NCBI GenBank assembly: GCA_022820995.1
Contig: JAJEEM010000032.1
Span: 1-64,000 of the forward strand
From: Gemmatimonadota bacterium
GTDB lineage: Bacteria; Gemmatimonadota; Gemmatimonadetes; Palauibacterales; Palauibacteraceae
DNA: 64,000 nucleotides
Direction of reading: 5' to 3'
Translations under genes and position numbers: made by a program
In this document: positions 45,438 through 52,973 of the stretch, piece by piece
How positions within the stretch are numbered: position 1 is the first letter of the stretch
How the letters are laid out: every line of letters starts with the position of its first letter
Notes under the pieces: generated by a model
Seen by the model: only the letters and a program-made list of their open reading frames with translations
Database searches by the model: none
Told to the model about the DNA's origin: nothing

Positions 45438-47572
45438 GCACGCGGAACAGCAAAAGCACGGGCCCGGGAATCGGGGGACGGTGGAGTCGGGTGGCCGGCC
45501 TCGCCGCGGTCGTGGCCGGCTTCGCGTTCGGCGTCGGAGCGCTCCAGGCGCAGTCGCACGTGACCGTGGACATCGGGGCCCGGGATCCCGCGTTCTCGCC
45601 GGACGGGTCGACGATCGCCGTCTCCATCCTGGGGAAGATCTGGACGCTTCCCGCCGAGGGCGGCGCGGCGTGCCAGCTCACGGACGGGGCCTCGTGGGAC
45701 ACACGCCCCGCCTGGTCGCCTGACGGCCGCTTCCTCGCCTACGCCGCGAGAACCCGGGAGGGGGCGGACATCCTCGTGCGCAACATGGCCACGGGGGGCG
45801 TCCGCTTCCTGCACCACGTTCCGGGGTCCGTCGGGCACATGCAGTTCCATCCGGACGGAAGCCAGCTCTTCTTCGTGGACGACCGCTCGCAGTACGAGGC
45901 GCACGTGTGGCGGATCCCGCTGGCGGGCGGCGAGGCGGAGCAGATCACGCACACCCGGAACTGGCACGAATGGTCGTTCGCCCTCTCGCCGGACGGGAAC
46001 CGGATCCTCCTCGAGACGGGGCGCTTCGACGGCACGGACCTGTACGAACTCGACCTGGAGGAGATGTCGCTCGAACAGGTCACGGACACGCCGGAGCGGG
46101 AGATGGCCGTCGCGTGGAGCGCGGACGGAACGCGCCGCGCGCACGTGATGACGCACAACGGTGCCGATCATATCGTCGTGTCGGTGTCCGGCGAGCGGAA
46201 GCTCTTCCTGAGCGCCTTCGACCAGAAGCAGCTCGCGTTCCACCCCTCCGGCGAGTGGCTCCTCGTCCTCGGGGGGCGGCGGCTGCAGCGGCTCGACCTG
46301 GAGAGCGGCGAGTTCGCTCCGATCCCCTTCGAGGCCCGATTCGAGGTTGCCGGGGATCCAGCCGACGATCTGCTGATCACGAACGTCCGCCTCTTCGACG
46401 GCACGGGCGACGAGGCGGTCGCGGGGGCGGCGGTGCTCGTCCGCGACGGGCGGATCGCCGAGGTGCGGACAGGCGCGGAGGCGAGGGTCCCGGAGATCGC
46501 GCCCGGCACGCCGGTCATCGACGGGGGCGGCCGCATGCTGCTCCCGGGGCTGATGGACAACCACTACCACTACTGGCAGCCCCTCGCCGGCGCGGACCTG
46601 CTGGCCGCCGGGATCACCGCGATCCGCGATCCCGGCTCGGCGATCCAGGACGCGATGGACTTCAAGGACGCGGTGCGGCTGGGCGTGCTGGCCGGGCCGG
46701 ACGTGTACACGGCCGGTCCGCTGATCGACGGCCCCGCCGGCTACCACCCGCTGGTCGACGTGAGCATCGACGACCCCGCGGCCGCCCCGGCGCTCGTCCG
46801 CGCGCTCAAGGAACAGGGCGTCGACCTGCTGAAGGCGTATTTTCTGCTCGACCCGGACGTGCTCGCTGCCGTCGTGGCCGAGGCGCGCGTCCAGGGGCTG
46901 CCGGTCACGGGGCACATCGGCGTCCGCACGAGCTGGCGCCAGGCGATCGAGGCCGGGATCAGCGGGTTCAACCACATCCGGGTGTGGCGCGACTTCCTGC
47001 CCCCGGAGATCCAGGTCGACGGCCGGGACATGTCGCTCGACGGCGGACGGAACCCCGTCGGACGCATGCAGGCGGACTGGCGGGAGATCGATCCGGCGAG
47101 CCCCCAGGTGGCGTCGCTCCTCGAACTCATGGCGGAGACCGAGACGGGGCTCGACCCCACGCTCTACATCCAGGAGATCGAGGACAGCGACCGCTCGCGC
47201 TTCTCGCTCCCGGAGTTCCACGCCGCCCGGCAGGCGTACGAGCGCATGGGCGAGTTCGTGCGCCGTGCCGTCGAGGCCGGGGTCCCGCTGCTTGCGGGCA
47301 CGGACAACGTGGGGCTGTTCAACGAACTCGAGGCGTACGCGGAGGCCGGCGTGCCGAACGCCGCGATCCTGCGGGCCGCGACGGCGAACGGCGCGCGGTG
47401 GCTCGGGAAAGAGGACGACTTCGGGACCGTGGCGCCGGGCCGCCGCGCGCACCTGATCCTCGTGGACGGAGATCCGCTGGCGGACATCGCCGACCTGCGG
47501 AATATCGATCTCGTCGTGAAGGACGGTGTGATCGTCTTCGGGGGGCCTCCGGCGGAGCCGCTCGTCCCGTGA
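45434..47572 (+). CDS. Exported amidohydrolase with N-terminal TolB-like propeller
   Basis: 712 residues from ATG 45434, coupled by overlap to the MBL gene. After a signal anchor, residues ~45-310 are WD40/TolB-like blades (RDPAFSPDGSTIAVSI, RPAWSPDGRFLAYAA). The rest is an amidohydrolase barrel with GLMDNHYHYW (H-x-H), a Lys in DLLKAYFL, H in VTGHIGV and FNHIRV, and the Asp of LLAGTDNVGL. This propeller-amidohydrolase fusion is common among secreted enzymes of Gemmatimonadota-like bacteria. Substrate unknown. Confidence 0.9.
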   Translation: MSTRNSKSTGPGIGGRWSRVAGLAAVVAGFAFGVGALQAQSHVTVDIGARDPAFSPDGSTIAVSILGKIWTLPAEGGAACQLTDGASWDTRPAWSPDGRFLAYAARTREGADILVRNMATGGVRFLHHVPGSVGHMQFHPDGSQLFFVDDRSQYEAHVWRIPLAGGEAEQITHTRNWHEWSFALSPDGNRILLETGRFDGTDLYELDLEEMSLEQVTDTPEREMAVAWSADGTRRAHVMTHNGADHIVVSVSGERKLFLSAFDQKQLAFHPSGEWLLVLGGRRLQRLDLESGEFAPIPFEARFEVAGDPADDLLITNVRLFDGTGDEAVAGAAVLVRDGRIAEVRTGAEARVPEIAPGTPVIDGGGRMLLPGLMDNHYHYWQPLAGADLLAAGITAIRDPGSAIQDAMDFKDAVRLGVLAGPDVYTAGPLIDGPAGYHPLVDVSIDDPAAAPALVRALKEQGVDLLKAYFLLDPDVLAAVVAEARVQGLPVTGHIGVRTSWRQAIEAGISGFNHIRVWRDFLPPEIQVDGRDMSLDGGRNPVGRMQADWREIDPASPQVASLLELMAETETGLDPTLYIQEIEDSDRSRFSLPEFHAARQAYERMGEFVRRAVEAGVPLLAGTDNVGLFNELEAYAEAGVPNAAILRAATANGARWLGKEDDFGTVAPGRRAHLILVDGDPLADIADLRNIDLVVKDGVIVFGGPPAEPLVP

Positions 47573-48348
47573 TCGACCCCCTCGCAGCAGGCGCCATCGA
47601 AGCCGTCGCCGTCGAATTCGCTGCCCTCGCGGCGCCGCAGGTGGAGCCGGCGGGCGGGCTCCTGCCGGCGCTCTCCGACAACCCGTTGCTCGCGCTCGGC
47701 GCGCTCTTCGGTGCGGGCGTCCTCACGAGCACGAACCCGTGCATCTGGCCGATGATCCCGATCACGTTCTCGGTCATCTCGGGGACGGCGGGCGAGGGTC
47801 AGCCGCGAAGGCGCACCATCGGACTGACGCTCACGTACGCGCTGGGACTGGCGCTCCTCTACTCGCTGCTCGGCGTCATCGCCGGGCTCAGCGGCACCGT
47901 GCTCGGGTCGATCGGAGCGAGCTTCTGGGCGCTGTTCGCGACCGGGAACCTCCTCCTCTTCTTCTCGCTGTTCATGCTGGACGTCTTCCCGGTCCCGGTG
48001 CCGAAGCGGCTCCTGGCGTGGGCGAGCAGCCGCGGCGGCGGGTCCTACCGGGCGGTGTTCCTCCTAGGCGCGACCTCCGGCATCGTGGCTGCGCCGTGCG
48101 GGGCGCCCGCCTTCGCCGTGGTCCTCACCTGGGTCGTCGCCGAACAGGCCGGGCTCATGGGGTTCGTCTACCTCTTCACCTTCTCGATCGGCATGACCGC
48201 CGTGCTCATCGCCGTCGGCCTGTTCTCGGGGACGCTCGCCGTGCTGCCGAGGTCGGGGACGTGGATGATCTGGATGAAACGGGCCGCAGCCGTCATCATG
48301 ATCGGGATGGCGCAGTTCTACCTCATCCGGGCGGGATACTTCATGTGA
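47569..48348 (+). CDS. CcdA/DsbD-type thiol electron transporter
   Basis: 259 residues from GTG 47569, overlapping the previous stop (GTGA). It has about six membrane spans. Paired cysteines sit in STNPCIWPMIP and IVAAPCGAPAF, the positions that shuttle electrons across the membrane in CcdA and the DsbD beta domain. It would pass reducing power from cytoplasmic thioredoxin to the periplasmic TlpA-like protein encoded next, with which it overlaps by 4 bases. Confidence 0.92.
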   Translation: MIDPLAAGAIEAVAVEFAALAAPQVEPAGGLLPALSDNPLLALGALFGAGVLTSTNPCIWPMIPITFSVISGTAGEGQPRRRTIGLTLTYALGLALLYSLLGVIAGLSGTVLGSIGASFWALFATGNLLLFFSLFMLDVFPVPVPKRLLAWASSRGGGSYRAVFLLGATSGIVAAPCGAPAFAVVLTWVVAEQAGLMGFVYLFTFSIGMTAVLIAVGLFSGTLAVLPRSGTWMIWMKRAAAVIMIGMAQFYLIRAGYFM

Positions 48349-48908
48349 ACGCAAAACCGGGACACGTCGCCACGCGCGCGATGTTCGCGGCGCTGGCCGC
48401 AATCGCCGGTGCCGCCCTCCTGTCGGCGGGTCCGCTCCAGGCGCAGGCGGGCGCGGGGCAGGTGAGCCTCGCCACCGGAACGCAGGGGCCGGACGCCACT
48501 CTGCAGGATCTGGACGGCAACGAGATCCAGCTCCTCGACTACGCCGCCGGCAAGCCCACGCTCATCGAGTTCTGGGCCGCGTGGTGCGAACAGTGCGAGG
48601 GGCTGCAGCCCGAGATCGACCGGGTGCAGGCGGACTTCGGCGACCGGGTCAACGTCGTCGCCGTCGCCGTGGCCGTGGCCCAGTCGCTGCGCCGCGTGAG
48701 GCGACACGCGGAGGCGCACGGGGCGGAGTATCCCTATCTGTGGGATGCGGATGGCGCGGCGGTGCGCGCCTACTCGGCGACCACGACCTCGATCGTCGTG
48801 ATCCTCGACGCGGAAGGGAAGGTGGCCTACACCGGCGTCGGCCCCGACCAGGATCTCGTCGGGGCCGTCACCGGTATCCTCTCCGATCAGGAAGCGGGAG
48901 GGGATTAG
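48345..48908 (+). CDS. TlpA-like periplasmic thioredoxin
   Basis: 187 residues from GTG 48345, coupled to CcdA (GTGA). A signal segment ends near PLQAQAG. The thioredoxin fold has its active site in FWAAWC81-E-Q-C84, with DLDGNEIQLLDYAAGKPTLIEF as the TlpA-type lead-in. It probably receives electrons from CcdA and reduces periplasmic disulfides, sulfenic or selenenic acids. The convergent candidate selenoperoxiredoxin gene ends 3 bases away and is a plausible client. Confidence 0.92.
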   Translation: MNAKPGHVATRAMFAALAAIAGAALLSAGPLQAQAGAGQVSLATGTQGPDATLQDLDGNEIQLLDYAAGKPTLIEFWAAWCEQCEGLQPEIDRVQADFGDRVNVVAVAVAVAQSLRRVRRHAEAHGAEYPYLWDADGAAVRAYSATTTSIVVILDAEGKVAYTGVGPDQDLVGAVTGILSDQEAGGD

Positions 48909-48911
48909 CTC

Positions 48912-49508
48912 CTACGGGTCGACAGGCTCGGGCGTCACCTCGTCGATGATGGCGGCGAGTTGATCGTAGGCGGCGGGATCCACCTGGTTGAAGCTCGGAA
49001 TCACGCCCGCGATGCGGCCGTCCGGGCCCACGACGATCACGGCGCGGCTGTCCACCGCGTTGCTGTCCCTCAATCCTCCGCCGAAGGCGACGTACGTCCC
49101 CCCGTCGTTGTCCGCGTCGCTGCCGAACAGGAAGGGGAAGTCCTCGTCCTTCAGCCATGACGCGAGTTCGTCGACCGGGTCGTTCGAGATGCCGACGAGA
49201 ACCACGTTCCGGCCCTCGTTGAAAACACTTGCGTACTGATCACGGTACGCTCTCATCTGAACCGTTCAGCCACGCGTCCTGACTCTGAAGAAGAAGGCGA
49301 GGACGACGGTCTCGCCCCGGTAGTCGCTGAGGCGGATCGGGTCCTCGAGCGCGCCGTAGCGCGTCGCGCCCGGGAGCGCGAAGTCGGGCGCCATCTCGCC
49401 CACGGCGAGCAGTTGCGAGTCCTGCGCGCTCACCGGGGCCGCGCCTCCGATGGCGAGCGTTCCGGCCAGGCCCAGCGCGAGGGCGGCGGCCAGGACAAGT
49501 CTCCGCAT
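48912..49508 (-). CDS. Exported peroxiredoxin, candidate selenoprotein (UGA at catalytic position)
   Basis: 199 codons from ATG 49508 with AAAGGA upstream. A signal peptide ends near PVSAQ. The AhpC/TSA fold runs MAPDFALPG, VVLAFFFRVRTRG, TGA at 49266-49268, then TVQMRAYRDQYASVF, GRNVVLVGISND and IVVGPDGRIAGV. The TGA is codon 81, in the same frame, at the position of the peroxidatic Cys of the PGCT-like motif. No other Cys occurs in the protein. A hairpin matching bacterial SECIS rules follows. Read as a stop, it would give an 80-residue stub and a 114-residue ORF. A Cys TGC to TGA null mutation is the alternative. Confidence 0.75.
49231..49268 (-). promoter_or_regulatory. Candidate bacterial SECIS element with the UGA codon
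   Basis: After UGA (49268-49266) and 15 bases, the minus strand forms GCGUAC (49250-49245), an 8-base loop CGUGAUCA, and GUACGC (49236-49231). The stem is perfect. The loop starts 21 bases after UGA and has G at its second position, as required of bacterial SECIS hairpins read by SelB. Confidence 0.6.
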
Positions 49509-52424: not shown

Positions 52425-52973
52425 ATGATGATGGAACGACAGAATGCAGCCCTGGTTCTCGCAGCCCGCGGGCTGCTGGCTCCGACGCTCGTACTCGTCG
52501 CCGTCGCCGGTTGCGCCGGTCAGGCCCGCCTGACGGACGAGGAGAAGCTCGCGCGCGTGGAAGAGATGGTGGAGGAGGTCGAACGGCGCTTTCCCGAGGT
52601 GGACGCCGTCACCGTGGAGGAGGTGGGGCGGCTGCTCGAGACCGGAAGCGTCGTGCTCGTCGACGCCCGGGCGCCCCGCGAGCGCGAAGTCTCCTGGATT
52701 CCCGGCTCGATCACCTCCGAGGAGTTCGAGCAGGACCCGGACCGGTACGCGGAGCTGACCGTCGTGGCCTACTGCACGATCGGACACCGGAGTTCGGAGT
52801 ACGCGAAGCGCCGGAGCGAGGAGGGCCGGCCCGTCCTCAACCTGCGCGGGAGCCTCCTCTCATGGGCCCACGCCGGCGCGCCGCTCGTGGGCCCCGACGG
52901 ACCGACGAACCGCCTCCACGTCTACGGTGAGACCTGGAACCTCGCCCCCGCCCGCTACGAGACCATCTGGTAG
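52425..52973 (+). CDS. Rhodanese-like lipoprotein
   Basis: 182 residues from ATG 52425 with GGGAGA upstream. A lipobox AGC gives C30. The rhodanese domain has VTVEEVGRLLETGSVVLVDAR, GSITSEEF and the active-site loop C117-T-I-G-H-R-S, then the Trp-rich C-terminus. It may transfer sulfur or act on periplasmic thiols. A degenerate partial copy of this type of gene lies at 54405-54505. Confidence 0.88.
   Translation: MMMERQNAALVLAARGLLAPTLVLVAVAGCAGQARLTDEEKLARVEEMVEEVERRFPEVDAVTVEEVGRLLETGSVVLVDARAPREREVSWIPGSITSEEFEQDPDRYAELTVVAYCTIGHRSSEYAKRRSEEGRPVLNLRGSLLSWAHAGAPLVGPDGPTNRLHVYGETWNLAPARYETIW

Follow-up and report, generated by a model that had tools for sequence, protein, structure and literature searches.

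The minus-strand gene at positions 48912 to 49508 of the window (the whole 64,000-nucleotide stretch of Gemmatimonadota DNA that was analyzed) very probably encodes a selenocysteine (Sec) peroxiredoxin of the AhpC/TSA type, in which the TGA at codon 81 (49266 to 49268) would be decoded as Sec. This prediction draws on the open reading frames (ORFs), Pfam matches, homologues, and a structural model, and Sec is the likely reading of the TGA because the codon is conserved in the phylum together with a hairpin sequence that hardly changes. An 80-residue ORF (49266 to 49508) and a 114-residue ORF (48912 to 49256) lie in a common frame on the minus strand and are separated by the TGA and three sense codons, the ATG of the second ORF being codon 85. 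When the TGA was read through, the resulting 198-residue protein matched the AhpC-TSA profile in a Pfam search at 69.6 bits (cutoff, 26), and its sole Cys-type position was codon 81. An earlier note on this DNA had described one AhpC/TSA frame broken only by the TGA, with the TGA in the place of the peroxidatic Cys and no other Cys in the protein. The ORF list and the read-through translation agreed with the first and last of these statements, and the alignment of homologues, which carry either TGA or TGC at codon 81, agreed with the second.

Conservation of the TGA was followed in 155 homologous loci, of which 152 reach codon 81 (L050, L133, and L054 do not and were left out); removal of 28 copies identical in codons 34 to 179 left 124 distinct loci. 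Codon 81 was TGA in 121 of these and TGC in three, one of which (L055) is a distant relative with 35% identity. The 121 TGA copies were 46 to 100% identical in protein sequence to the window gene; many of the loci come from close relatives, and the locus counts are not independent. At the genus level, the TGA was present in the genome that carries the window and in 15 of 16 relatives, the sixteenth match ending at a contig end. An assembly error was rejected as the source of the TGA, since 121 of 124 distinct loci carry it; the possibility raised in the earlier note, that the codon at 49266 to 49268 is truly TGC or TGT, was not realized, and independent assemblies have the same TGA.

A SECIS-like hairpin at 49231 to 49250 on the minus strand starts 15 bases after the TGA. 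Its 6-bp stem (GCGTAC/GTACGC) closes an 8-base loop (CGTGATCA) that has G at position two, and the distance from the TGA to the loop is 21 bases, a geometry that had been described correctly beforehand. In the bacterial SECIS model, as given in the accessible part of PMC13188914, the loop has 3 to 9 nucleotides, the upper stem has 4 to 16 bp, the spacing is 16 to 37 nucleotides, G is found in the first two loop bases, and the minimum free energy is -7.5 kcal/mol or lower. The window hairpin falls within each of these ranges, with a calculated energy of -8.8 kcal/mol for a 46-nucleotide segment. The model is a loose one, as compatible stems of at least 6 bp with fitting loop and spacing arose in 62.1% of 20,000 synonymous recodings that followed the codon usage of the window, and a perfect 6-bp stem at the same site arose in 38.6%. 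Likewise, 76 of 200 shuffled sequences folded at least as well as the 46-nucleotide segment (z = -0.22). Because chance yields such stems often, the hairpin was rejected as stand-alone evidence, and the argument that the earlier note had built on a single sequence proved weak and within chance; it is conservation across homologues that fills this gap.

The 20-mer that forms the hairpin was identical in 114 of the 121 TGA copies, the other seven kept at least five of the six stem pairs, and all six pairs were present in 120 copies. None of the three TGC copies had the 20-mer. The model also names constraint by selection, and codons 87 to 92 had the lowest synonymous difference of 144 six-codon windows (0.016 versus a median of 0.464; windows touching codon 81 were excluded). 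Codon 89 was CGT in 117 TGA copies and CGG in four, never CGC or CGA, and CGC accounts for 38% of Arg codons elsewhere in the same genes; therefore, the loop always begins C-G-[U/G]. Similarly, codon 90 was GAT in 119 of 121 copies, even though GAT supplies 22% of the Asp codons in the rest of these genes. No covariation was found in the stem in a test on five sequences, a test that is of no use here because the stem does not vary. These results indicated that the position of the TGA and the conservation of the hairpin, not the hairpin itself, exceed chance. A point against the Sec reading is that the 8-base loop is unlike the loops predicted downstream of three further in-frame TGAs in this genome, which are GGA or GGU triloops.

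The genome that carries the window (3.72 Mb, 94.7% complete) was found to possess the genes for Sec synthesis and insertion. SelB (367.7 bits; cutoff, 242) and tRNA-Sec (79.7 bits; cutoff, 47; anticodon tca) are both on contig C74, and SelA and SelD, each over its curated cutoff, are on contigs C34 and C78. SelB and tRNA-Sec, whose absence the earlier note had named as a refutation, are thus both present. The SelD gene (L154; C78, approximately 177779 to 178705) has an in-frame TGA of its own at match residue 11 (GAG-TGA-ACKLG). A hairpin with a GGA triloop is predicted just after this TGA, and SelD itself is likely a selenoprotein.

Co-occurrence was then considered across 149 genomes drawn from the class, of which 115 matched a Cys-relative query at an E value of 1e-30 or better. 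An in-frame-TGA copy was present in 95 of these and absent from 20, the TGA being counted anywhere in the match across this draw and the codon itself being inspected only in fetched loci; 13 of the 20 genomes without TGA were inspected, and all had TGC. Four TGA genomes (G026, G004, G017, and G003) lay outside the tRNA-Sec draw, leaving 91. The search detected tRNA-Sec in 86 of these 91, as opposed to 5 of the 20 genomes that have no TGA copy (Fisher P = 1.4e-10, not corrected for relatedness). In the five TGA genomes in which the search did not find tRNA-Sec, SelB was over the cutoff in three (G181, G065, and G125), G009 had only a partial SelB where a contig ends, and the profile search gave no SelB over the cutoff in G183; a further search of G125 gave a tRNA-Sec match barely over the cutoff. 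SelB was also over the cutoff in all five genomes that have tRNA-Sec and no TGA copy, and therefore the Cys form also occurs in genomes that use Sec.

The AlphaFold2 model of the read-through protein had a pLDDT of 87.6, with values below 50 in most of residues 1 to 29. Residue 81 was near the start of a helix (residues 79 to 90), which is where peroxiredoxins usually have their peroxidatic residue. Foldseek matched the model with a probability of 1.00 to BCP-type chains (3hjp and 5epf) and to AhpE (1xvw), at 24 to 30% identity. Thr78 was kept in 117 of 121 TGA copies and Arg155, which from the alignment and the known family pattern we take to be the catalytic Arg, in all 121. The domain, the fold, and the catalytic Thr and Arg are thus those of a peroxiredoxin; as a group, however, the TGA copies lack the active-site Pro of the PxxxTxxU motif. 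At this site, 118 of 121 had Phe or Tyr, and Val, Ile, and Pro were found once each. The accessible part of PMC13188914 calls this Pro highly conserved, and Cys copies do keep it, in 3 of 3 cases in the homologue alignment and in 15 of 15 in a further set of regions (two of these regions also contributed to the alignment). Among full-length database proteins with Cys at the catalytic site, 9 of 10 had Pro, the exception being P0003, with Phe. Loss of the Pro is not universal, since the TGA copy at L204:7506-8521 (genome G087) keeps it; this copy lies beside a TGC copy and has the same hairpin 20-mer, which the TGC copy lacks. As to further Cys residues, 104 of 121 TGA copies had none in the aligned part, and 17 had one, at position 26 or lower. 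In the TGA copies, therefore, further Cys occurs only in the leader.

The peroxiredoxin is predicted to be exported. Its first 28 or so residues (49425 to 49508, minus strand) form a putative signal peptide, recognized by inspection only, with a basic start, a hydrophobic stretch, and VSA before QD. Convergent with the gene is a plus-strand gene at 48345 to 48908 for a TlpA-like thioredoxin with a WCEQC motif and with Redoxin, AhpC-TSA, and Thioredoxin Pfam matches. Upstream of it, at 47569 to 48348 on the plus strand, is a gene for a CcdA-type membrane electron transporter whose only match is DsbD_TM (130.6 bits), and its stop codon overlaps the putative tlpA start. The GTG starts of both genes (48345 and 47569) were chosen by inspection. 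Neighbors were examined at 79 loci, 75 of which have at least 2.5 kb downstream. Both CcdA and TlpA were present at 59 of these 75 loci, at 58 of them in convergent orientation, with a median gap of 92 bp. The two conserved Cys residues of CcdA were found in 60 of 60 matches, and both Cys residues of the TlpA CxxC were found in 61 of 61. The pair occurred at about 60 of the 79 loci, compared with 7 to 12 of 79 for four other neighbors from the window, and was the most conserved neighbor of those tested. In the close group of TGA loci formed by L073, L075 to L077, L082, L084, and L085, no CcdA/TlpA match was found within 6 kb downstream. Elsewhere in the window, the plus strand at 52425 to 52973 encodes a Rhodanese-domain protein with a lipoprotein-like start.

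We propose a sequence of steps for this system. SelB would bind the hairpin and deliver Sec-tRNA-Sec to UGA codon 81, and the peroxiredoxin would be exported to the envelope. There, Sec would attack peroxide and become a selenenic acid. Since the peroxiredoxin has no resolving Cys, we propose that it is reduced externally, the oxidized Sec being reduced by the CxxC of the neighboring TlpA-like protein, which CcdA would in turn recharge from cytoplasmic thioredoxin. The export and relay steps are somewhat more probable than the reverse, and the TlpA-like CxxC protein together with CcdA is the likely reductant of the peroxiredoxin. The earlier note had suggested a Sec-only, exported enzyme that needs an external reductant, and this suggestion gained support from the Cys counts and from the CcdA/TlpA neighbors. 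For the full scheme of an envelope selenium peroxide shield in Gemmatimonadota, running from CcdA through TlpA to an exported, Sec-only peroxiredoxin with the Pro-to-aromatic exchange and a SECIS element preserved as essentially one 20-mer in the phylum as sampled, we consider the chances to be evenly balanced. If the relay is true, Sec is used in the oxidizing envelope with a dedicated reductant.

A real, if lesser, possibility is that the gene encodes a Sec peroxiredoxin for which TlpA is not the reductant. Another thioredoxin or a small thiol would then reduce the enzyme, or the enzyme would be cytoplasmic, and the pair would serve, for example, cytochrome c maturation. TlpA- and ResA-type proteins commonly serve cytochrome maturation, and the best NCBIfam match of the TlpA neighbor was ResA, although far below the cutoff. 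Moreover, the genes are convergent and do not belong to a common operon, the complete pair is missing from the vicinity at 16 of 75 loci, and the signal peptide was assigned by eye. This possibility is countered by the frequency of the pair relative to that of the four other neighbors. The pair was also found in only 1 of 14 Cys-copy regions (one region also has a TGA copy), which is a weaker test because the relatives are more distant. In addition, an envelope peroxiredoxin, PprX, is supplied by the TlpA of Caulobacter in a ScsB-TlpA-PprX relay, according to the accessible part of PMC5403849.

It is highly improbable that the TGA is a true stop, lying either within a decaying peroxiredoxin gene or ahead of a separate 114-residue protein that begins at the codon-85 ATG. 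The presence of this ATG three codons after the TGA speaks for such a protein, as does the fact that 109 of the best 120 (of 782) protein matches have 110 to 117 residues and start at that Met. The 114-residue piece, however, lacks the catalytic position, and a stop would account poorly for a TGA that is retained in nearly all distinct loci and that tracks tRNA-Sec across genomes. Decay would not be expected to leave the part ahead of the TGA so well conserved in protein sequence despite codon change; mean protein identity among TGA copies was 76% before the TGA and 62% after it, and 48% of the identical residues before the TGA were encoded by different codons. Reading of the TGA as another residue such as Trp or Cys, through a changed code or simple suppression, is scarcely credible: one database protein (P0111) has Trp at the site (GWTIQ; FFYQARTKGWTIQ), possibly from a gene call that took TGA as Trp or from a TGG codon, but TGA is not reassigned because it ends other genes in the window (47570 to 47572 and 48346 to 48348), in relatives with Cys the codon is TGC and the 20-mer is missing, and the Sec gene set is in the genome. 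With Sec as the preferred reading of the TGA, a predicted selenoenzyme that is widespread in the phylum sits in databases mostly as fragments without the active site.

Sec peroxiredoxins with a TxxU motif are already known. The catalogued Prx family (PF00578/COG1225), as presented in the accessible parts of PMC13188914, PMC9312934, and PMC2398784, includes PrxU of Eubacterium acidaminophilum; it has the same Pfam domain as the window gene and the placement of Sec at the peroxidatic position that is predicted for that gene. The window lineage differs from it in the replacement of Pro in 120 of 121 TGA copies and in having a putative signal peptide and CcdA/TlpA neighbors. The variant traits here are accordingly the loss of Pro in most copies, the predicted export, and the CcdA/TlpA linkage. 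The window protein scored 37.4 bits against the NCBIfam PrxU model (NF040737), below its cutoff of 270, and membership in any named NCBIfam equivalog was rejected, as none reached its cutoff. The BCP/PrxQ and 1-Cys AhpE proteins share the predicted fold, and AhpE, by the title of 1xvw, has a single catalytic Cys; unlike the window protein, they use Cys, and Pro is retained in 2ywn and 2cx3, the chains that were aligned. The same genome also carries, on contig C35 (L003:1276-1980 and L004 near 1501 to 1944), two AhpC/TSA genes with an in-frame TGA in a WUPYC motif. Such UxxC Prx-like proteins resemble the window protein in having an AhpC/TSA domain with an in-frame TGA, but in theirs a Cys lies three residues beyond the Sec position (UPYC), and the predicted hairpins have GGA or GGU triloops.

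The ScsB-TlpA-PprX envelope peroxide relay of Caulobacter was reportedly described by Cho et al. in 2012, and the proposed relay would resemble it with selenium at the working end. In both, a transporter and a TlpA-like thioredoxin accompany an envelope peroxiredoxin, here a predicted one encoded beside them. ScsB comprises more than a membrane part in its domain organization, whereas the window transporter consists only of DsbD_TM domains (approximately 260 residues; CcdA-like), and the window peroxiredoxin is predicted to be of the Sec type. The Gemmatimonadota gene was not found in the accessible portion of the literature searched, a scope that excluded most subscription papers and bioRxiv. 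The word Gemmatimonad is absent from the main text of PMC13188914 and PMC5029168, and the gene is absent from the available passages of PMC9312934, PMC2398784, PMC4491210, PMC5403849, and PMC10469786.

A midpoint-rooted tree of 132 rows (120 TGA and 12 Cys) required six state changes, at least five of them forced by supported branches, and thus exchange between Sec and Cys happened repeatedly. The loss of Pro in most TGA copies and in only one of the Cys copies examined provides a test of which features selenium makes dispensable, and genomes with TGA and TGC copies side by side are natural controls. P0003, the metagenome protein with Cys and Phe, is separated in the tree from the adjoining predicted Sec gene L090 by a very short branch and is nearly identical to it, reflecting either a replacement of Sec by Cys in recent time or an error in the sequence. 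Three loci (L075, L076, and L077) come from records titled Gammaproteobacteria; their genes are identical or almost identical to those of Gemmatimonadota records, and the bins are probably mislabeled.
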